From NCBI GenBank assembly GCA_021108275.1, contig JAIORD010000037.1:1-64000 (forward strand): a stretch of 64,000 nucleotides of DNA, read 5' to 3'. Below are positions 34,459 through 63,195 of the stretch, one piece after another. The notes under the pieces are model-generated. The model did not search any database and was not told where the DNA came from. It saw nothing but the letters and a program-made list of their open reading frames with translations. Source of the DNA: Methanococcoides sp. GTDB taxonomy: Archaea > Halobacteriota > Methanosarcinia > Methanosarcinales > Methanosarcinaceae. The first letter of the stretch is position 1, and each line of letters starts with the position of its first letter. Position numbers and translations under genes: made by a program.

Positions 34459-35727
34459 TTATTTCTTCTGTGTAACACTCATGCACATACCGGCAGCGAT
34501 CGTCATACCCATATCACGGATAGCGAATCTGCCGAGCTGTGGAATCTCACTTACAGGCTCAATACACATTGGCCTTGTTGGCTTGATCGTAACGATAGCT
34601 GCATCCCCAGCCTTGATGTAGGTTGGGTTCTCTTCCTTGACCTGACCGCTCTTTGGATCCAACTTCTTGTTGATGGCCATGAGGGTACATGCAGTCTGAG
34701 CTGTGTGGCAGTGGAATACAGGAGTGTATCCTACTGTGATAGCGGATGGGTGCTGAAGGACAACGATCTGTCCGGTGAACTCTTCAGCTACCGATGGTGG
34801 CTTCTCTGCAGGACCACATACGTCACCTCTTCTGACGTCGTTCTTTCCAATACCTCTTACGTTCCAACCGATGTTGTCACCAGGTACAGCCTGATCCCAT
34901 TCTTCGTGGTGCATCTCAATTGACTTGACCTCACCAGTTGCGCCGCTTGGCATGAAGGTGACCTTCTGGCCTTTCTTCATGATACCGGTCTCTACCCTAC
35001 CTACTGGAACGGTACCGATACCGGAAATGGTGTATGCATCCTGTACTGGGACACGGAGTGGAAGTGTGTCTGGCTTACTTGGCACCGTAAGATTGTTGAG
35101 GCATTCAAGCAATGCAGGACCAGTGTACCATGGAGTGTTCTCGCTTGATTTTGTTATGTTGTCGCCTTCGAATGCGGAGGTTGGAATGAATGGGACATCG
35201 TCTGCCTTGAATCCTACCATACCGAGGAGCTGTGATACTTCTTTCTTGACCTCGTTGTATCTGTCCTCGCTGTAATCTGCTGCGTCCATCTTGTTCACAG
35301 CGACGATAAGCTGGTTGATACCAAGGGTCCTGGAAAGGAAAACGTGCTCCTTAGTCTGTGCCATTACACCATCAGGTGCTGCAACTACAAGAACAGCTGC
35401 ATCTGCCTGGGAAGCACCAGTGATCATGTTCTTTACGAAGTCACGGTGACCTGGACAGTCCACTACTGTAAAGTAGTACTTGTCGGTATCGAATCTCTTG
35501 TGTGAGATATCGATGGTAACTCCTCTCTCACGTTCTTCCTTGAGTGTGTCCATAACCCATGCAAATGCGAAGGATTCCTTACCCTTCTCTTTTGCTTCTG
35601 CCTTATATTTCTCGATAAGGTGTGCAGGTACTGCGCCTGTCTCGAACATCAACCTTCCGACAAATGTTGATTTACCGTGGTCAACGTGTCCGATAACTGC
35701 TAAGTTCATATGTGGTTTCTCAGCCAT
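34459..35727 (-). CDS. tuf: Translation elongation factor EF-1alpha
   Basis: 422 residues. GTPase that delivers aminoacyl-tRNA to the ribosome. G1 [10 protein letters not shown]3 [13 protein letters not shown]4 NKMD and G5-like SAF are present; domains 2 and 3 follow ([31 protein letters not shown]). Full archaeal length. It lies between fusA and rpsJ in the standard order. Confidence 0.98.
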
Positions 35728-35849
35728 GATAATATTCTCCTTTATTTTAAATTGGTATAATTTGTAATTTTGAGCATAATGGTTGTTTCTACTCTTAAAC
35801 CTTTCCAGCGAATAGTCTTAGGTAGAAAAAAGATGGATTTACATCCACC

Positions 35850-38042
35850 TTACATGCTCATAAAGTCTTCTGCCTGTGGCAAAGCTGCCTTGAGTCCTTT
35901 TCGCTTGCGGATACCTGTAACAACTTCGGTCATGAGGCTCATTGGAAGTGGTTCGAAACCTGCGAACTCTGTACTCCACATTGCTCGACCTTCTGTTGCG
36001 GATCTGATATCACCAGCGAATCCGAATAACTCTGAAACTGGTGCTTTGGACTCGATGATGGTTGTGTCACCTTCGGAAGTCATGTCTATAATGACACCGC
36101 GACGACCCTGGATCTCCTTGGTTGCTCCACCCATCTGCTCCTGTGGAACCTGGATGAATACCTTCTGGTATGGTTCAAAGAGAGTATCATCAGCCATAAG
36201 CATTGCAGCCTGGATTGCCTGCCTTGATGCAGGAATTACCTGTGCAGGGCCTCTGTGGACAGCATCCTCGTGGAGTTTTGCATCCATGAGCTTTACTTTG
36301 ACACCCATACATGGTTCCTTGGAAAGTGGTCCAGCCTTCATGACCTCGGCGAATCCCTCAAGGATAAGCTCCATTGTTTCGTTCAGGTACTGAATACCCT
36401 TTGTCATATCGAAGTAAGCATTGCTCTCGAAGATATTTGCGATCTTCTTTGCTTCATCCTTATGCAGACCTGCTGCAATGAGCTTCTCCCTTCTCTCGAC
36501 TTCAGGCATCCTCATGGATATCTCGCCATTGCGTATAAGCTCACGGACTTCTGGCTCCAGTGGCTCGACAATAACATAGAATCTGTTGTGCCTGTTAGGG
36601 GATTTACCTTCCACAGGACCTGCTGTACCTGTGATCGTCTCACGATATACGACAAGTGGAGGTGTTGTTGAGATCTCCACACCTTTGTCACGCTCGATCC
36701 TGTGAGCAATGACCTCAAGGTGAAGTTCACCCATACCAGCCATTAAGTGCTCACCGGTCTCTTCATCAAGAGTGATCTTGAGTGTTGGGTCTTCCTTAGC
36801 GACCTGGCGAAGAACTTCAACGAGCTTTGGAAGGTCCTTCATGTGCTTTGCTTCGACTGCAACAGTAACTACAGGTTCACTTGCGTGCTTGATGCTCTCG
36901 AAAGGCTCCATACCTTCAAGTGTGGTTACTGTAGCACCTACAAATGCATCCCTGAGACCTGTTACCGCTGCAATGTTACCTGCAGGGATAGCATCTACTT
37001 CAAGTCTCTCAGGGCCCATGAAAACACCGACCTGCTGGATTCTGTTCGTTTTTGATGCGCCTGAAACGTAAACTTCCATACCACGGGAAAGTGAACCGCT
37101 GAAAAGTCTACCTGTTGAAACTTCTCCTGCGTGTGGATCCATAGTAATATCAGTTACCATGAAAGCAACATCTCCTGTGGCATCTGCAACAGACATCTGC
37201 TTACCGATACCGGACTCACGGTCACCATGCCAGATAGCTCCGACCCTGCCCTTCTGTGCATCGATAGGACTTGGAAGGAATCTGATAACCATATCGTTAA
37301 CTGCTTCGTGGAGTGGACATTTGTCTGCAAGTGCCTTCATGTCTTCTTCACGGCAGTAATTGAAAACGTCACTAAAGCTTACACCGGTCTTCTTCATCAT
37401 AGGGACACTGATAGCCCAGTTGTAAAGAGCGGAACCAAATGCTACAGTACCCTCAGCTGCATTTACCTTCCAGCCTGCGTTGTAGCGCTCTTCGTTCATA
37501 CCTTTGATAAGCTTGTTTACGTGATCTATGAGCTTTCCGAGCCTGATCTGCATCTCCTGATCATCGACCTGCAACTCGTTGATAAGACGGTCTACCTTGT
37601 TAATGAAAAGTACCGGCCTTACGTGCTCTTTCAGTGCCTGTCTCAGAACGGTCTCGGTCTGAGGCATTGTACCTTCAACAGCATCGATGACAACTACAGC
37701 GCCATCTACTGCACGCATTGCACGGGTTACATCGCCACCAAAGTCAACGTGACCTGGTGTATCAATAAGATTGATAAGATATTCCTTCTCCTCATATTCG
37801 TGCACCATTGACACGTTAGCGGAGTCGATTGTGATACCTCTTTCCTGCTCCTCTGCGTCAGAATCCATGAACAACTGGCGACCTGCGAGCTCCTTAGAGA
37901 TCATCCCAGCGCCTGCGAGGAGGTTATCTGAAAGAGTTGTTTTTCCGTGATCGATGTGAGCTACAATACCGATGTTCCTGATCATTACTGGATTGCTCAT
38001 CAGCGTTGTAACACGCTCAACCATTTTCTTCCTTCGTCCCAT
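35850..38042 (-). CDS. fusA: Translation elongation factor EF-2
   Basis: 730 residues, full length. Ribosome translocase. N-terminal [15 protein letters not shown] is typical of archaeal EF-2; G1 is [11 protein letters not shown]3 [10 protein letters not shown] and G4 NKVDR. The domain IV tip contains [13 protein letters not shown], where the His is the diphthamide site. 47 bp after rpsG. Confidence 0.98.
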
Positions 38043-38089
38043 GATAAAACCTACAATTGAATATTATATAAAATAAAAAAGGAACACGA

Positions 38090-38650
38090 TTAACGTGCTG
38101 CCTTTGCGACTCTTTCCTTTCCATCCTTTCTGTTGATGGAGAAGCACTTTGCATCACGGTTAGAAGCTGCGATGAGCTCGGATGCAAGACATTCTGCTGC
38201 AGAGCGCTTTGATTTGAAAGCTGTCTGATTAGAACCTATTGAGATATTTCTCAATGCATGGTCAACACGCCTCTGTGGAGCTGTGTCAACTGCCTTTGGT
38301 ACGGAGATACCACCGTATTTAAGTCTGACAACTTCTTCCCTTGGACCTGCATTTGAAATAGCTTCTACGAGAACCTGAACAGGATTCTTCTTTGTCTTCG
38401 AGTTAACGATGTCAAAAGCCTCATCCACGATACGAAGAGCGATCTGCTTCTTACCAGTGTTCTGTGCATTACGCATTACATTGTTCACAAGACGCTCGAC
38501 GATCGTAATGTCGGACTTGTTGAACTGCTGTCTTGCGTGTTTACCTGATGTATGTGGCACGATAACAGGATCGAGGTTGACGTATCTCTTGATACCAGCA
38601 TCAGCGACTTCGACCTCTGTAAGGTCCCACTTTCCGAATAACTTGTACAT
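38090..38650 (-). CDS. rpsG: 30S ribosomal protein uS7
   Basis: 186 residues from the ATG at 38650 ([15 protein letters not shown]), with AAGGAGATAATTCC as ribosome site; the open frame to 38683 overlaps rpsL and is not the start. [20 protein letters not shown] and [20 protein letters not shown] are conserved, and the C-terminal [13 protein letters not shown] is the archaeal ending. It begins 4 bp after rpsL ends. Confidence 0.96.
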
Positions 38651-38654
38651 GGAA

Positions 38655-39083
38655 TTATCTCCTTGGTTTTTCCTTTCTGCCAATGACCATTTCTCTCAAT
38701 GATACATTGTTCACAGCAATGACCTTGAAGCGCACGCCAGGAATATCACCCATTGCACCACCCATACGGCCACCTATTCTTTCTACGGTCACTTCATCGT
38801 GCTCATCAATAAAATTGATAGCACCATCACCAGGACAGAAAGCTGTTGCCTGACGACCGTTTTTGATCAACTGGATCCTAACACATTTCCTGATAGCGGA
38901 GTTAGGCTGTTTTGCCTCGACACCCACCTTCTCAAGAACTATTCCACGACCCTGTGGCGCACCACTTAAAGGGTCAGATTTAATGTCCAGACCTAAGGTA
39001 CGCCTGCTGTAGTTGGTGTCTTTCCACCTAGCATCTTTGCGAACCTGCTGAAGTCTGTGAGCTGCATACTTTCCATTTGGCAT
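38655..39083 (-). CDS. rpsL: 30S ribosomal protein uS12
   Basis: 142 residues, archaeal/eukaryal type. [20 protein letters not shown] then [17 protein letters not shown] is the decoding-centre signature, followed by [17 protein letters not shown]. First of the ribosomal pair in this operon, 77 bp downstream of nusA. Confidence 0.97.
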
Positions 39084-39160
39084 ATATTATCCTCCCAATT
39101 AGTTTTCCGTAAATTTTCGTAAATAAATCAGTTGAATTAGATTATTGTGTGAACAAAAGT

Positions 39161-39586
39161 TCACTGTAAGATAACATCATCGACATAGTGATGGCGACCT
39201 ACCACCCTTTTTATCTTATCGATATTGCTTCCGTTACGCCCTATAGCAAGCCCTTTTTCATTTGCTGCCACATCCACATAGGCAATTTTCTGATCGCCTT
39301 TACTGGATATCCTGACGGACTTAACAGACACAGTACCGAAAGCATTCTTTATAAATGTAACCGGTTCGGCCGAATATTCGATGAGTTCAATGTGTTTGTC
39401 AACGGATTTTTTCACCCGATTGAGATTATCCCCACATTTCCCAATAGCTGCACCCATGTCACCAGTATTTACGACATAGATGATCCTATCATCATCGACA
39501 ATGCAATCCTTAATAGAAGCGTGAGTCACACTTTCAAACAGTGCAATGTATCTGATACATTCTGTTGAAAGTCTGATCTCGCCCAA
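39161..39586 (-). CDS. nusA: NusA-like transcription termination/antitermination factor
   Basis: About 141 residues: two KH domains only, as in archaeal NusA (GAAIGKCGDNLNRVKKSVD; GLAIGRNGSNIDKIKRVVG). I place the start at TTG 39586 (LGEIRLSTEC...), nine bases after GGAG; an in-frame TTG three codons earlier (39595) is too close to the ribosome site. Position between rpl30e and rpsL is the archaeal norm. Confidence 0.92.
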   Translation of the reverse strand: MGEIRLSTECIRYIALFESVTHASIKDCIVDDDRIIYVVNTGDMGAAIGKCGDNLNRVKKSVDKHIELIEYSAEPVTFIKNAFGTVSVKSVRISSKGDQKIAYVDVAANEKGLAIGRNGSNIDKIKRVVGRHHYVDDVILQ

Positions 39587-39603
39587 ATAATACAACTCCT
39601 GAA

Positions 39604-39891
39604 TTAGATCCCTGCAAGTATATCGGATTCGCCTGCATCCATGATCGCCATGGTAGCAATGGTAAATGGCTTACCACATGCAGGACCGAGATCGACACCG
39701 GTACCAGCATAATCTAAAATAGGTACGCTGGTTGCCTCGATCTGTTCTCTTATTTTTGCAGGGCAGTTGGATGCAAGAACTACCATCTTTGCTTCGTTTT
39801 TAACTGCTGCCTCAATAGTGCGGTTCGCGCCCATGATGACAGTACCTGTCCTGATAACTTTGATAAGTGCTTTATCAATATTAATATCCAT
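39604..39891 (-). CDS. rpl30e: 50S ribosomal protein eL30
   Basis: 95 residues. L7Ae/L30e fold: [40 protein letters not shown] and [23 protein letters not shown]-binding protein characteristic of archaea and eukaryotes, encoded between RNA polymerase A'' and NusA. 17 bp before nusA. Confidence 0.95.
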
Positions 39892-39981: not shown

Positions 39982-41142
39982 TTAAAGGTCTTTGAGAGGA
40001 TTTCTTGCAACCAGGTGAACATCACCAGTACCGAGCTTGATCGGCTGACCGACGATAATGTTCTCAGTAACACCATTAAGCTCATCGATATCACCGCGCA
40101 TACCGGCATCAAGCAAGTGATTAACAGTAACCTCGAACGCTGCACGGGCAAACACACTGGCCTTCTCACCGGAAATACCGTGACGACCGATCTGCTTTAC
40201 CTCTCCATCACAGGTCATGATGTCCGACACAAGCATGAGGTGGCGGATATCCACAGTAAGACCCTGCTCACGCAGAGTGTCACTGGCTTCCTTAATGATG
40301 GCAAAACGAGCAGCCTCAATACCGAACACTTCATAGATCTCACCAATATTGTTAGTAGAGGTCCTTGAAAGGTCTATACCTTCGACATCGAGAATTTCCT
40401 TAAGCATTGAGCCTTCAGTATAAAGAGTGTATTCTTCGCCATCCTTTCTGATAACGACCCTCTTGATACCCTCAATACCTTTCAAAGTGATACCATGAAT
40501 GTTCTTGGCAAGCTGGAGCAGATCCCTGTATAAAGGTTCTTTCGGGATCACAATTATCTGATTTGCAACCTCACTGGGGATCTTTACATCTACTTTAAGA
40601 CCCTCTGCGAGTTTCTCAGCAATGGCATCAACATCAATGCCCCTTTGCAAAAGCATCTTCTCATTAAGATCGAGGATCAGGTTCATGTTAGCAAGATCGG
40701 TAGTAACGTCCGCCAGATGCTCGATATGAGTAGCTTCGATCTCCCATGCGACCTTCCTTGCGAATTCCCTGTCTGCAGCATGCTCTTTGACAAGAGCAAC
40801 GGTCATCATAGGAGTACTTGGAGTCTTCCTTGCATCCACGATCTCGATAAGACGTGGCAAACCCAACGTAACGTTGATCTCAGCCACACCAGCGTAGTGG
40901 AAAGTACGCATGGTCATCTGAGTACCAGGTTCACCAATGGACTGTGCAGAGACCACACCTACCGCTTCACAGGGCTCAACACATGCATATTCATAGTCTG
41001 CCATGACACGTTCGATGATCACTTCCATTTCTTTTTTCGTGACACCGACATCCACTACATCCTTTCTTAACGTAGCAAGTGTCGTCTTTGGAAGCGGAAG
41101 ACCGCTTATCATAGAATCGATAGTAGCTTCACTGATGGACAT
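39982..41142 (-). CDS. rpoA2: DNA-directed RNA polymerase subunit A''
   Basis: 386 residues: the C-terminal third of the largest subunit. [20 protein letters not shown] followed by [20 protein letters not shown] is the trigger-loop region; [20 protein letters not shown] and [19 protein letters not shown] are the conserved C-terminal motifs. Its ATG overlaps the rpoA' stop (TAATG). Confidence 0.98.
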
Positions 41143-43793
41143 TATGCCACCTCCTTACCTGTAACAGATCTGACAACACGGTGTATTGCCTCCGGTTTAC
41201 TGTAATCACTCTTTGTGGAGTCGATACCATCTTCACCGTATTTGAATTGTACAATAACACCTCTCGTCTCACGCACAGAACCATCATACTGGACCTCAAG
41301 GTCCTGCAGCGCATTCACAAGACGCCTCTGAAGGTAACCTGATTGGGAAGTACGAACCGCAGTATCCACAAGACCTTCACGGCCACCAATTGCGTGGAAG
41401 AAATACTCTGTAGGATTCAATCCGCTCTTATAACTTGCCTTCACGAAACCGTGAGCATCTGCACCAAGGTCACCCTTATCAAAGTGAGGGAGGGTCCTAT
41501 CTGCATATCCTCTCCTTATACGCTCACCACGAACCGCCTGCTGACCTACACAAGCCGCCATCTGAGTCAAGTTCAAAATAGAACCACGAGCACCAGACCT
41601 TGCCATTATAACCGCAGAGTTCTCAAGACCAAGACTCTTATCAGCCATTCCACCAGTATCATCCCTGGCTTTACCCAGAGTCTGCATGATCCTCATTTCA
41701 ATGGTCTCATCAAGGGTCCTGCCCGGCAAAGCTTCAAGTTCCTTGGCCTCATACGCCTGAACAAGTTCAGCGACCTCGTTTTCAGCATCCTTTAGCCTTA
41801 CAGCAATGCCTTCCTTGGCCTCTAACGGAATATCCTCATCACTTATACCAAAGCTCAGACCTGTGTGCATAACACCTCTGATAGCAAGCCTTGTGAAATC
41901 ATCTACGAACTGTGCACCTGCAGTGGTACCGAATTCTTTAACGACCTTATCAAGAACACGTCCTTTGAACGCACCGATTGCCTGCTCATCGATAGTACCT
42001 TTGATAAGTTCACCATCTTCGATGACAACATAGGCATCGTACTCACAGTCCCCTTTCTTACAGGTATCACACTTGAAACATACCTGTGCAGGGAACTCTA
42101 CATAAAGTCCCTTAGGAAGGATCTGACTGAAGATCTGCTTACCGTCCCAATAAGGGTCACCATCTTCAAGATGTCCCCTAGGCTCTGGAAGCTCACGCAA
42201 TTCAGACTTACGGAGAAGCTCCAATGCATCGTTCTTACTAATGAAATTTTGAGTCCTTGTCAAAAGGAACAGACCGGAAATGTGATCGTGGATACCACCG
42301 ATGATAGGACCACCAAAACGCGGGGAAAGGATGTTTTCCTGAACCTGCATAAGGATACTGGCCTCTGCACGTGACTCTTCTGTCTGAAGAACGTGCATGT
42401 TCATCTCATCACCGTCAAAATCAGCATTATATGGCGGACACACAGCAGGATTGAGCTTGAATGTCTTATTAGGGAGTACCTTTACGCGATGAGCCATGAT
42501 ACTCATCTTGTGCAGTGAAGGCTGCCTGTTGAACAGCACGATATCTCCATCCTGCATCTGCCTTTCAATGGTCCATCCAGGCTCGAGCTTCTCAAGAAGT
42601 TCTTCTTTGTTGATATCGGTGACCTTGATACGACGTTCATCATCACGGATAACATAATTCGCACCCGGATGAACTTCGCGTCCACGGCGAACATATTCCC
42701 GAACAAGATCAAGGTTCTTTGAAATGACCCTTACAGGAATAGTCATATGTTGTGCAATAGAAAGGGGAACACCAACTTCATTGATACTAAGGTTTGGATC
42801 AGGAGATACCACAGTACGTGCAGAGAAGTTCACACGCTTACCTGACAGACTTCCTCTGAAACGTCCTTCCTTACCCTTAAGACGCTGGGTCAAGGTCTTC
42901 AGCGGCCTTCCTGACCTGTGCCTGGCAGGAGGTACACCTGAAACCTCATTATCGAAATAAGTTGTAAGGTGATATTGCAAAAGCTCCCAAAGGTCCTCAA
43001 TGATAAGCTGAGGAGCACCAGCATCCCTATTCTCCTGGAAACGCTGGTTGATACGAATGATATCCACAAGCTTGTGGGTCAGATCATCCTCACTGCGCTG
43101 ACCGGATTCAAGAGTGATGGATGGCCTCACAGTGACCGGAGGTACCGGAAGAACTGTAAGGATCATCCATTCAGGACGGGCGGTATCAGGGTTCATCCCC
43201 ATTACACGGATATCATCATCTGAGATGTTCTCGAACCTGTCCCTTATCTCGGTAGGGGTCAGCTTATGACCATTCTCAATGTACTCACTTGGCTTCTCGA
43301 ACTTTATATCGAGCTGCTCCTCATTACAGTAAGGGCAGGTCTTTGACTTCCTTGCTTCCTTGAAGACATTATTGATAACATCATCAGGAAGGTGACCCAT
43401 ATCCTTCTGCTTGGACAGCTGTTCAAGGAAGTCCCTCTTCTTACCTTCCTCAAGCAGAAGGGAACTGCACTTGCAACAGACCGAACGTAAGATCTTACGA
43501 AGGATCTTATTGAAACCAACGTGGATAACAGGTGCCACAAGTTCGATATGCCCGAAGTGACCAGGGCATTCACCAGCACGGCTTCCACAGGACTTACATT
43601 TAAGTCCAGGATCGATCACACCAAGACGCAGGTCCATAAGACCCATGTCTATCGGATAACCGTCATCATCATAGGTATCCGCAGTTATGATCGATGTAAC
43701 GCTCATTTTACGTACTTCGCGCGGAGAGATCAAACCGAATTTGATCGCACCGATCCTCTTTGGTATTGAAGGTACCATATTGTCCATCTGCAT
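41142..43793 (-). CDS. rpoA1: DNA-directed RNA polymerase subunit A'
   Basis: About 883 residues from ATG 43793 ([15 protein letters not shown]), with GGTGTGAT seven bases upstream; an in-frame GTG at 43802 overlaps the rpoB' stop. Clamp zinc site [20 protein letters not shown], second zinc pair CPYCNEEQ, the catalytic metal loop [12 protein letters not shown] and the bridge-helix region [19 protein letters not shown] are present. Catalytic core subunit. Confidence 0.98.
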
Positions 43794-43798
43794 TATTA

Positions 43799-45613
43799 TC
43801 ACACCGCATCATCAAGTCTAAGTCTTGGAGCAACCCCAAGGGATTTGATCTCATCAAGAAGCAACTTGAACGCATAGCTCATTTCCACCGGGTGAATGTC
43901 CGTTTCAGCACCACAGTTCGAACAGTATCTGATATTACGTGTCCTGTCAAAGGTTGCCACCATACCACAGTGTCCACATACGAGTTCTACGACCTTATCA
44001 GACTCATCTAGAAGTCTTTCCTTCAAGGTCATCGCAGCACCGTGTCCGATCAGTACATCTCTTTCCATTTCACCAAACCTAAGACCTCCTTCACGAGCAC
44101 GTCCCTCAGTTGGCTGACGGGTCAATACCTGCACAGGACCTCTGGACCTTGCATGGATCTTTGATGCAACCATGTGGTGGAGCTTCTGGTAAAGGATAAC
44201 ACCAACGAAAACATCTGCCTGGATCTTCTTACCGGTAACCCCATCACAGAATACCTCTTTTCCTGTGTGCGAGAAACCATTTTTCTGAAGCCCTGCACGG
44301 ATACCATCCTCCTTATCACCGGAGAATGCAGTACCCCTCATACGCTGACCTTCAATAGAACCAAGTTTCCCACCGATCATTTCCAGAACGTGGGCAACGG
44401 TCATACGTGAAGGGATAGCGTGAGGATTGATAACAAGATCAGGGACCATACCCAGTTCTGTAAATGGCATATCATGATATGGAACTATCAAACCGATAAC
44501 TCCCTTCTGACCGTGCCTTGATGCGAACTTGTCACCGATCTCAGGGATCCTTTCATCCCTTATCTTCACCTTTGCAAGCCTTGTACCATTGATAGACTCA
44601 GTAAGAATAACAGTATCAACGATACCTTTCTCGTTCGAGCGCATCGTAATTGCACTTTCCCTGCGCTGTTCAATAGTTATACCAAAGTCAGACTGTTCTT
44701 CAAGGAACCTTGGAGGACTTGTCTTGCCGATAAGCACATCATTTGGACCTACAACGGTTTCCGGGTTCACAAGACCATCAATATCGAGGTTTGCATATGC
44801 ATCTGCACTGCGGGCACCTCTGAACTCAGAATCAGGAATCTCGAACTTGTCTTCCTGACCACCAGGATAACGGCGTTCTTCACCTTCAAAGGTTCTCAGG
44901 AAGTGGCTTCTTCCAAGACCCCTCTCAATGGAACCTTTATTGAAAACCAGTGCATCCTCAATATTATGCCCTTCGTAGGACATGACAGCGACAACGAAGT
45001 TCTGTCCAGCCGGACGGTCATCGAAATGGATAGCATCACAGGTCTGAGTACGCGTCATTGCCTTCTGCGGATAGTGAAGTACATGTGCACGTGTATCAGG
45101 CCTGAGTTTCAGGTTGGATGAAGAAACCCCGATACACTGCTTGATCATAGCTGCACCCATGGTGTTCCTCGGAGAAGCATTGTGCTCCGGATATGGGACC
45201 ATACCAGTACAGATACCAAGCATTAGGGAGGGGTCTATCTCAAGATGTGTGTGTTTAAGAGTAAGGTCCTTTTCATAAAGACCAATGAACACATTCTCTT
45301 CCTCCTCAGCATCCAGATATTCAACAAAACCCATATTCAAGATATCACGGAACGATATCTCGCCATCCCGGAGCTTTTCGATATGTTCCTCAGTGATCAG
45401 CGGAACACCATCTTCAACAACAAGGGCAGGCCTTCTTGCACGACCCATATCAGAGCTTAAGATTACTTCGTGAATATCCTCATAAAGAGTTACATTCAAC
45501 TGATCCGGCAACATACCACTGCGGCGCTGCCCCCTTATACTCTCGACAAGCTCTACCGGATCATCGTGAGTTCCGATAAATTCCCCATCGAGGAAGACTT
45601 TTGCTTCAGTCAT
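43799..45613 (-). CDS. rpoB1: DNA-directed RNA polymerase subunit B'
   Basis: 604 residues: C-terminal two thirds of the second-largest subunit. [34 protein letters not shown] and [19 protein letters not shown] are conserved active-site and flap motifs; the clamp zinc site is CGHCGM...CSNCG near the C-terminus. It overlaps B'' by 4 bp (ATGA). Confidence 0.98.
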
Positions 45614-47295
45614 TCTTGCACCTCCGTCTCATCGCCGCCCACGGGATCGGCATTTTCATCCATGTACTTATGATAATCAACAACGTTGGGCTCAGACTCT
45701 GCCTTGGCTTCAACCTTTACAGCAGGTACTTCGCCCTCATCATGAGGAGTCAATTCCAGGTCTTCCTCATAATCAACATCGGCAGCCAATTCCAAGATAA
45801 TTTCCGGAACGTAGATTTCCACAGGAGCTACACCAAGTCCGTAAATGATATTCTTAACAACTTCCTTATCCTCTATACCAGTAGAAAGCTCGACCATCTG
45901 GGCAAAGTTCTTCACCAGACCACAATTTGGACCTTCGGGAGTCTCTGAAGGACAAAGGCGTCCCCATTGAGTGGGATGCAGATCACGAGCCTCAAAGTGA
46001 GGCTGAGCCCTTGAAAGTGGAGAAATTACACGTCTTAAGTGAGAAAGGGTTGAGATGTAATCCGTACGGTCAAGCAATTGAGATACACCACTTCTTCCGC
46101 CTACCCAGTTACCCGTAGCAAGAGGGTGCTGAAGACGGTCAGTAAGAACATCCGCACGCACAAGTGTCGCTACGTTCAATTCCCTGTTCCTCATGTTAGC
46201 CCTTTCAAGCTGGTATTTTACATCTCGTGCAAGACGGTTGAAAGCTACCCTGAAAAGATCCTCCATCAGGTCACCGGTCAACTTGAGCCTCTTGTTGGAG
46301 TAGTGGTCCTTATCATCATCTGAGCGCCTCTTAAGAGCAAGCTCGAAACATGACTCTGCCATCCTACCAAGGAAATGTGCCTTTGGTATTCTGTCAGCAG
46401 GATCGTTGCCAAGGTGCGGAAGAAGATAACGGTCGATCACATAGTTCGCACGCTTCATCTGATATTCCCTTGCCTGCCCGGAAGCCACGCGACCACCGAT
46501 CTTCTCAATAGCATCTTCTATTGTGAAGACCTCTGCCTCTTCGAGGTTCTCGAACATGAACTTCATGATCTCAGGATCAGTCGAAACGATCTTTGCGACA
46601 TCTTCATCGGTCTCAACACCCAGAGCACGCATCAATGTAATGAAGTTGACACGTCCGGAGATAGATGGGAATGAGATCTCCAAAAGGGATTTCCTGCCTC
46701 TTTCCACAACTACCAGTGCCCTGTAGCCTCTCCTCTGAGAGAACACCTTTGAAACTTCGATGGAGTCACCGTAACGCTCACCGAGCTCAGTAAGGATCTT
46801 GTTAGGGGCAAGGTCCTCAAGTGTCATCACGACACGTTCAGTACCATTTACAATAAAATATCCCCCAGGATCAAGCGGATCCTCACCATGTTGGATCATT
46901 TCGGCATCGCTTATGCCAACAAGGTTACAGATCTCCGATTTGATCATTACAGGAAGCTGGCCGACCTTTGCCTCCCTTGGCTCTCCTTCCTCACCATTCT
47001 GTACAACAGACATTTCCAGGAAAAGAGGAGCAGAATAAGAAAGGTTACGCAACCTTGCCTCGTTTGGATACAATTTCTCAATTGCACCATCTGCTTCCTT
47101 TACTACTGGATGTTCCACCCTTATCTTACCAAGTTTGACATAGATATCCTCGAGATCGGTCTCGATTATACCTTGTTCATTAATGATCTTCTGAAGACCA
47201 TGTTTGACAAACTTGTTATAAGAGTCAATGTGATGCTGCACAATCTTGTCCTTTGTGAAATAGGCTTCTGATAATACGCTCGTGTCTAACGCGAT
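45610..47295 (-). CDS. rpoB2: DNA-directed RNA polymerase subunit B'' (start codon anomalous)
   Basis: N-terminal part of the second-largest subunit. Conserved coding continues upstream of the first GTG (47241) as [17 protein letters not shown], so the real start must be near 47295. There the codon is ATC, correctly spaced five bases after GAGGGTG, with ATC again at 47298, and an in-frame TAA eight codons upstream of 47295. No ATG, GTG or TTG exists in between. Otherwise normal: [40 protein letters not shown] and [20 protein letters not shown]. Without an unusual start the protein would lose 17 conserved residues. Confidence 0.93.
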
Positions 47296-47481
47296 GATAG
47301 CACCCTCTTTTAATTAATTGAATTTTAGAAAGAAAAATTAGTGGAATTAACGGTCACTGCGACCATATAGGCAGTCACAGTATCAACTCGGTCGAATGCA
47401 CCCTCGAAACAATGCATTAAAAAGCAACCAAAATAAGTGGATAAAGAATAAACAAGATATTTCAAATATTAAAACCTCGTT

Positions 47482-47718
47482 TCACTCTATTACATATCTG
47501 TAATACAGTGCTTCACCTGCAGTCTGGCTTTTGCGAATAACCTTCACAACATTACCAGGCTCCGCACCAATTTCAAGTGCGATAGGATCTGTTACTTTCA
47601 ACTTAGGTAACTGTTCCCTTTCAACATTATAATGTGCCAGGACAGTTTTCAGATCATCCTCATCCATAACTTCATGATGGGGGATTAATTCGTGGTCAAG
47701 CAGGCTGAACTTACTCAA
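47482..47718 (-). CDS. rpoH: DNA-directed RNA polymerase subunit H
   Basis: 78 residues from TTG 47718 (LSKFSLLDHELIPHHEVM), preceded by GGAGGAG; an upstream ATG at 47757 would add 13 non-conserved hydrophobic residues and overlap the ribosome site. RpoH (Rpb5 C-terminal part) sits at the jaw. KVTDPIALEIGAEPGNVVKV and the terminal YYRYVIE are conserved. First gene of the RNA polymerase operon. Confidence 0.95.
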   Translation of the reverse strand: MSKFSLLDHELIPHHEVMDEDDLKTVLAHYNVEREQLPKLKVTDPIALEIGAEPGNVVKVIRKSQTAGEALYYRYVIE

Positions 47719-47767
47719 ATTTACTCCTCCTAAAAAATATGCAAGCAATATATTCATGGATTGCTGG

Positions 47768-47841
<74 letters not shown>

Positions 47842-47903
47842 ACGGCGACTACTGCACCGGCACCATAAATGCCACGTCATACAGCGAGGTAACAAGGGAA
47901 CAC

Positions 47904-47916
47904 TAGTATATAAGCG
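47904..47916 (-). promoter_or_regulatory. TATA box of tRNA-Lys (and possibly the RNA polymerase operon)
   Basis: On the minus strand CGCTTATATACTA (core TTATATA) lies 66 bp before the tRNA. This predicts a 5' leader of about 40 nt, compatible with RNase P processing. Confidence 0.5.
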
Positions 47917-48129
47917 TTCCTATTGTGCATTGTGCATATTTTTGGAATGTATATGCCAGACCCACACTCACAAAATACATCTTGAAATATAAATGAAAGA
48001 GGTATGAAATTGTCAATACATATTTATAGGATTGTTTTTACTTTTTACAAAGTTAAACCTTTTTTGACATTAAATTATTGAACATACCGCCCTTATCAAG
48101 ATCAAGCGTATTTATCAGACCGATAACGC

Positions 48130-48212
48130 ACTAACCAGATCTTTGCGAAGCAATATTCAGCCTGAATAACAACTTAGAGAAAGTTGTACCAATTGTCGCA
48201 AAGAGAGTTAGT
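48130..48212. ncRNA. Candidate structured RNA/DNA element (three-way junction)
   Basis: ACTAAC/GTTAGT (48130-48135, 48207-48212) and TCTTTGCGA/TCGCAAAGA (48140-48148, 48196-48204) form a long outer stem with a small internal loop. Inside are two hairpins: TATTC/GAATA with loop AGCCT (48154-48168) and CAACTT/AAGTTG with loop AGAGA (48170-48186). The strand cannot be fixed. It does not match a family I know; it might be a small RNA or the fold-back of a miniature mobile element. Confidence 0.45.
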
Positions 48213-48389
48213 TATTGCATCCTCGGGAATTCCATTATATGCCTCTCTTTATATAAGCTTTGACCCCAACAATCACCCACAAATGACTTGAAGGTATCAA
48301 AAAAGAAGAAATATACTAAAATTTTGAATTAAAACGACACGACCAAAACCTAAAAAGAAAAACAATTAAAAAAAATAATTACAGGACAA

Positions 48390-62745: not shown

Positions 62746-63195
62746 TCAGATAATCTCCAGAAGTTCGTCCAAAGTAAGGGATCTAGCGAACTGAGTAACT
62801 CGTCCATTATCTGTCAGCGTAAATTTGCCCTGTGAAGCACCAGTGACCACAAAGTGTTCCGGACCAAAGTCTTTGGTATCAGCCCATGTGTCATTATTCA
62901 GATAAAGGAAAACCCTTTCTCCGGGAGAAAAGGAAGATTCATCCTCCACATCTATGGAAACATAATCGTCACTGCCACCCTGTATCCTAACTATAACTTC
63001 TTTTTCGGGCAATGGATTTTTGAGATAGCCATCCACACTGATTATGACATCAGTATAGAGAACATCATGCCAACCCAGATCATAGATATCATCGGTTGGC
63101 CTCGTTCCGTCAGCAGTGTTCCATTTACTTGGAAATATCCCCTTGACCGTACCTATTAGAATTATATCAGACCGATCTCTCAGATCTTCATAGCT
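62746..63195 (-). pseudogene. 5'-truncated secreted-protein gene
   Basis: Coding starts just after the stop of the neighbouring lipoprotein gene and reads SYEDLRDRSDIILIGTVKGI, FPSKWNTADGTRPTDD, HDVLYTDVIISVDGYLKNP and on to SLTLDELLEII. The frame has no ATG in the upstream part; the first GTG, at 63036, lies within conserved sequence. A full copy of this type would have a signal peptide and start about 40 residues earlier. I read it as a gene that lost its 5' end through a deletion joining it to the lipoprotein gene. Confidence 0.6.

Follow-up and report, generated by a model that had tools for sequence, protein, structure and literature searches.

Translation of the archaeal RNA polymerase gene rpoB'' probably begins at a near-cognate AUH codon across the Methanosarcinaceae

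The gene for RNA polymerase subunit B'' (rpoB'') in a Methanococcoides genome is predicted to begin at AUC, the second of two adjacent ATC codons, and comparison with relatives suggests that AUC, AUA or AUU (AUH; ATH in DNA) has been kept at this site throughout the family Methanosarcinaceae. We put the probability of this reading at about 0.85; that methionine is inserted at the codon, and that the codon acts as a throttle, is what we infer from it. This start is the most likely of those considered.

In the window, the 64,000-nucleotide stretch of DNA that was analysed, rpoB'' with its proposed start occupies positions 45610..47295 of the minus strand and comprises 561 codons and a stop. The product scores 861.5 bits against the B'' equivalog model NCBIfam NF007175 (cut-off 355), with a match beginning at residue 4 of the proposed protein, and the gene sits in an rpoH-B''-B'-A'-A'' cluster; both features identify it as archaeal subunit B''. 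The closest named loci are those of Methanococcoides alaskense and M. seepicolus, with 100% identity over the best segment of the part compared. The preceding gene, rpoH (47482..47718, minus strand; NCBIfam NF007129), has a TTG start behind GGAGG and lies just downstream of a tRNA gene (47768-47841, minus strand; Rfam). On the other side, and also on the minus strand, are rpoB' (43799..45613), whose ATG overlaps the rpoB'' stop as ATGA, rpoA' (41142..43802), whose start region overlaps the rpoB' stop, and rpoA'' (39982..41142). These are followed on the same strand by genes for L30e, a protein that we take from its sequence to be NusA-like, S12, S7, EF-2 and EF-1alpha (34459..39891).

The first-pass annotation had described an rpoB'' gene without ATG, GTG or TTG start, in which an ATC stands 5 nt from GAGGGTG, preceded by another ATC and by an in-frame stop; all of these details proved exact when the minus strand was read again. 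From the stop (TAA, 47314..47316, minus strand) the frame runs TAA TTA AAA GAG GGT GCT ATC ATC GCG TTA GAC ACG AGC GTA TTA and continues TCA GAA GCC TAT TTC ACA AAG GAC AAG ATT GTG CAG. There is no in-frame ATG, GTG or TTG between TAA 47316-47314 and the GTG at 47241 (47239..47241, minus strand), a Val codon that is the first acceptable to usual gene finding. The Shine-Dalgarno-like GAGGGTG is at 47301..47307 (minus strand). The first ATC (47296..47298, minus strand), which we read as spacer and not as start, begins only 2 nt after GGTG. The second (47293..47295, minus strand), the proposed start, lies 5 nt past GAGGGTG and 54 nt upstream of GTG 47241, and codon 2 is GCG (47290..47292, minus strand). 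Across 864 kb of the window's genome, the spacing from GGTG to canonical starts has its mode at 5 nt (52/189), followed by 6 nt (38/189), and the Shine-Dalgarno site thus stands at the right distance from the AUH codon. A structured leader was also sought: the 222 nt at 47260-47481 fold no better than shuffled sequences (z -0.24), and an Rfam search of 46800-48300 returned no family apart from the tRNA further up.

The arrangement is shared by relatives. Among named genomes, 34 loci were found, 31 from Methanosarcinaceae (Methanococcoides, Methanohalophilus, Methanolobus, ANME-3 and unclassified members) and three from more distant organisms. At the site, 30 of the 31 have ATC, ATA or ATT in the same arrangement and none of the 31 has ATG; the exception is locus L030. 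The conserved N-terminal codons that had been noted over 54 bp upstream of the first GTG are thus found in 30 of 31 named loci and in the family as a whole. Of 111 genomes searched in the GTDB family, 108 matched, and the 5' end could be read in 107 (in G002 the match covered only the C-terminal part). At 47295-47293, exactly 54 nt above the 47241 position, 62 of these have ATC, 33 ATA, 11 ATT and one CCA, and none has ATG; the counts take in six genomes of genus g11 (presumably Methanomethylovorans) in which the start has moved and two of g8 (presumably Methanosalsum) with GTG as the next codon. A comparison with close relatives had been proposed as a check on the first-pass reading, and with ATH in 106 of 107 genomes it points to an old family-wide trait and not to an oddity of one genome. 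GGTG lies exactly 5 nt before ATH in 99 of the 107, and GAGGGTG is invariant in 30 genomes of g13 (presumably Methanosarcina), with only GAA/GAG variation in g10 (Methanolobus). An apparent insertion in G098 and G099 turned out to be only an assembly gap of N. The genome with CCA, G105, is by sequence the same assembly as L030, an ANME-3 bin; here a 2-nt deletion removes ATH and brings the GTG of GGTG into frame, which is either an assembly error or a start-codon switch that arose naturally.

As expected of a near-cognate start, 75 of the 107 genomes lack any ATG, GTG or TTG from the upstream stop to IVQHH; in the remaining 32, that stretch contains a Leu TTG or a codon specific to the lineage. 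Some of these in-frame alternatives count against the AUH reading: TTG at codon 3 in all eight genomes of g9 (Methanohalophilus), GTG just upstream of ATH in three of five g6 genomes, G026 and G105, and GTG as the codon after ATH in g8. Further canonical alternatives occur in g11, in two g12 genomes (TTG at codon 5) and in G064 (an upstream TTG), and Leu TTG codons are also present at +7 in some genomes.

Coding constraint begins at the AUH codon. The 15 nt GAGGGTGCTATCATH vary at no position among 30 g13 genomes and at one among 26 g10 genomes, compared with 37 (g13) and 43 (g10) variable positions in the 48 nt before them. Within genera, variable sites fall in the third codon position in 60 of 100 cases over codons +1 to +16 (p=4e-8 vs one third), in 53 of 60 over codons +17 to +26, and in 125 of 370 upstream of the proposed start. 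The pattern of change is that of coding sequence after the proposed start but not before it. As a control, the 15-nt start region of rpoH varies at 11/15 positions in g10 and at 2/15 in g13. The extreme conservation of the rpoB'' start region is therefore clear in g10, and it is also distinctive in g9, but it is not distinctive in g13, where the rpoH region itself varies at so few positions. The match to the B'' model (from residue 4 of the proposed protein) and the alignments to archaeal RNA polymerase chains of solved structure (from residue 6 or 8) both begin upstream of GTG 47241. An earlier suggestion that the conserved stretch might be untranslated is contradicted by this third-position bias, by the solved chains and by homology to outgroup N-termini. 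Codon 2 encodes Ala, Thr or Val in every family genome outside g11, and any of these as residue 2 fits removal of the initiator methionine.

Other families of the order have an ATG or GTG start followed by Leu/Ile-Asp/Asn, with a single TTG (f2, G116). In f6, which we take for Methanotrichaceae, the start is TTG followed mostly by Leu-Asp, and in f7 it is ATG; loci L160, L171 and L178-L180 gave no reading. These canonical starts align without gaps with the codon after ATH, and the Methanosarcinaceae start consequently lies one codon further upstream. In a 55-protein tree that excluded the N-terminal columns, the Methanosarcinaceae form one clade (SH-aLRT 97), and three changes between the ATH and canonical states are needed. 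Most simply, ATH was gained once and lost in g8 and g11. The AUH codon, one codon upstream of the ancestral ATG, GTG or TTG, would then date back to the last common ancestor of the family and persist in its descendants except for two lineages, probably Methanomethylovorans and Methanosalsum, in which GTG took over as the start. In g11 the GTG has its own SD-like site and lies seven codons on, and the old ATC ATC is still visible upstream. In the wider set of loci, contigs titled Chloroflexota or Chloroflexi (L033, L034) are probably mis-binned: the B'' they encode is of archaeal type and similar to the one in a Diapherotrites bin (L035).

Several other starts can be proposed for rpoB'' and all are improbable to differing degrees. 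The one conventional choice in the window, GTG 47241, would make the protein 18 residues shorter and the conserved stretch before it a leader. It is the first canonical codon, and GTG is found at its place in 60 of 107 genomes, but GTA, GTC or GTT stands there in the other 47, so that this start is untenable across the family. Among g10 genomes, 17 of 26 offer their next canonical codon only 29 to more than 58 codons past ATH, and six of eight g9 genomes only 94 codons past it. The supposed leader has a coding signature, is homologous to outgroup N-termini and aligns with solved polymerase chains, and ahead of the GTG there is only a weak AAGGA, inside the coding stretch. We consider a start here highly unlikely. 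Initiation one codon above the proposed site, at the first ATC (47298), is also very unlikely. It shares the frame, and ATC is present there in most genomes. However, that codon varies (ATC, ATT, AGC, AGT, ACC, ACT, ACG, AAC), being AGC, AGT, ACC, AAC, ACT or ACG in g4, g6, g8, g9 and g12, and it would require a GGTG spacing of 2 nt, which is uncommon (14/189). On the tree (40 rows, without g11 and G105), 7 changes fall on its second position and none on positions 1 and 2 of the proposed start codon. The third position of the proposed start changes 6 times among C, T and A. That none of these changes is to G has a chance of about (2/3)^6=0.09, and taken alone this is only suggestive of avoidance of ATG.

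The GTG inside GGTG, in the +1 frame, could also be imagined as a start, followed by a frameshift or by the end of a mini-ORF and a restart. Of the 107 genomes, 99 have it, in 92 of these it opens a mini-ORF of 1 to 5 codons, and in G105 the deletion puts it in frame. Pairing with the anti-SD sequence accounts for GGTG, though, and no suitably spaced SD precedes the mini-ORF itself. The position of its stop is not constant (mostly 3 or 5 codons), in seven genomes it stays open for at least 32 codons, and in G011 and G013 the GTG is absent altogether. This mechanism has very little probability, as has initiation at the RCN codon (GCG/ACG), which occupies the place of the outgroups' ATG, GTG or TTG. 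The RCN codon is the positional homologue of the ancestral start, and ACG stands at the start position of one other gene here, but the place is occupied by GCG, GCA, GCT, GTA, GTT, ACG, ACA or ACT, as expected of an Ala/Thr/Val codon 2, and its spacing of 8 from GGTG is less common (21/189 vs 52/189). Finally, the first-pass annotation had allowed that a native ATG was mutated or misread. Nothing speaks for a sequencing or assembly error beyond the rarity of such starts; the same state recurs, as three different codons, in independent assemblies of about 100 species (30 of 31 named loci, 106 of 107 genomes), which refutes such an error and leaves it a negligible probability.

Initiation at the AUH codon could work as follows. 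The GAGGGTG site would position the ribosome on AUC at 47295-47293, where the ordinary initiator Met-tRNA most likely pairs with two of the three bases and presumably inserts methionine. A weak codon behind a conserved SD site, at the head of the overlapping rpoB''-rpoB'-rpoA' block, could lower initiation of several subunits together. The overlap of the rpoB'' stop with the rpoB' start was seen by eye in all 29 loci whose junction is intact, and rpoB' and rpoA' overlap in the window. The weak codon may have been retained to hold polymerase synthesis below that of the downstream same-strand ribosomal-protein and elongation-factor genes, which would themselves be unaffected; AUH would thus act as a throttle on translation of the coupled RNA polymerase genes. 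The 84 family genomes in which the rpoH start was read all have TTG or GTG there and none has ATG (the gene was not found in 23), in keeping with low initiation in the RNA polymerase cluster. Because this neighbour also has weak TTG/GTG starts, weak initiation need not require AUH. To our knowledge, archaea lack IF3, and aIF1 is its nearest archaeal counterpart. A more far-reaching version, which we offer tentatively and consider less likely than not, is that AUH is a selected throttle, with AUG actively excluded and a low, perhaps growth-sensitive and aIF1-dependent rate of initiation, on a transcript shared with highly expressed translation genes, and that near-cognate starts (AUA, AUC, AUU, CUG and ACG) form a regular if minor class of about 1% of Methanosarcinaceae genes that gene finders mis-start.

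Other genes in this genome may use similar starts. In 864 kb of the window's genome, which is 32% of it, 667 gene-like ORFs were scanned for an SD site and near-cognate codon ahead of the first canonical one. There were 27 such genes, and six besides rpoB'' were compared with relatives (mtrA-like, kamA-like, CimA-like, TPR-type, lipoprotein and UspA-like). Several candidates were set aside by eye as apparent chance occurrences or broken genes, e.g. C1:98490-99246. The mtrA-like gene (Pfam MtrA, MtrH; L243:3-1127, G000 contig C1, minus strand) has ATA at its putative start in 9/9 Methanococcoides loci, and three loci of other genera have TTG in its position with unchanged spacing (2/14 loci gave no reading); it is a MtrA-MtrH fusion-like gene, fused in three Methanococcoides genomes and split in others. 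ATA is also found in 7/7 Methanococcoides loci of a gene that we take from its sequence to be kamA-like (L299:3858-5165, minus strand). A gene presumably of TPR type, as judged from its sequence (L300:18500-19645, minus strand), has CTG in 5/5 loci and TTG in one Methanolobus locus (three not read). The lipoprotein gene (L292:2-655, minus strand) has CTG in five of 11 genomes and TTG, ATG or GTG in six (L402 by eye from another frame), and the UspA-like gene (L290:2029-2556, plus strand) has ACG in three of 11 and ATG in eight. Most of 29 loci of the CimA/LeuA-like gene (L303:11416-12891, minus strand), from relatives within the order, have no canonical start, and the gene shares ATH-RYN-TTA with rpoB''; ATG occurs at the ATH place in f5 locus L360, and TTG two codons on in Methanococcoides L341. 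Within the window itself, the coding signal of an ORF at 62748-63195 (minus strand) extends upstream of the first canonical codon, and a GTC stands behind AGGT. Taken together, these sequences suggest that Methanococcoides tolerates near-cognate starts and that rpoB'' is an old, fixed case.

Initiation outside AUG, GUG and UUG is thought to be exceptional, and the well-studied cases, infC and sigR, are bacterial. An essential gene would here have kept AUH across about 100 species, including, by inference, the genetically tractable Methanosarcina. This makes two ideas testable: that weakness of a start codon is a regulatory device in archaea, and that aIF1 polices starts as IF3 does. Gene models restricted to ATG, GTG and TTG would truncate RpoB'' in Methanosarcinaceae or move its start, software that allows only these codons would place the start too far downstream, and other genes would be affected too.

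The consulted parts of the literature give archaeal start codons as AUG, GUG and UUG (PMC7531240), with AUG normally favoured (PMC5622118). In the accessible portion of the open-licence PMC literature we found no report of a non-AUG rpoB start in Methanosarcinaceae, nor does the available text of the Methanosarcina mazei Ribo-seq paper (PMC11456600) or of the Methanolobus TSS paper report the rpoB'' start. According to the former, 5% of unannotated small ORFs in M. mazei begin with CTG (PMC11456600). This is non-canonical initiation in the same family, but in small ORFs, unlike rpoB'', and the portion seen mentions neither ATC nor an rpoB'' start. The closest archaeal precedent in the excerpts consulted is the ribosomal protein L12ae gene of Staphylothermus marinus, for which an ATC start was proposed from an alignment (PMC2678158). 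It too is a probably essential archaeal gene without a valid start, but it concerns one gene in one genome of a distant phylum, whereas the rpoB'' site is conserved family-wide. Among the open papers searched there was no precedent for an archaeal AUH start that is shared by a whole family and was fixed long ago on a gene of the core RNA polymerase, although near-cognate starts as such are known. Known near-cognate starts include infC, which encodes IF3 (ATT in Escherichia coli, ATC in Streptomyces), and Streptomyces sigR (GTC), where the GTC start sets the ratio to the translationally coupled rsrA, as described in the part of the source available (PMC5472188). Autoregulation of the infC type does not apply to rpoB'', whose product is an RNA polymerase subunit and no initiation factor. 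Both systems are bacterial, and IF3 represses such starts there, whereas regulation of rpoB'' is putative. In both, as here, a near-cognate codon is fixed on one gene, and sigR is in addition coupled to the next gene, which by analogy may make Streptomyces sigR the best parallel to the proposed rpoB'' throttle.
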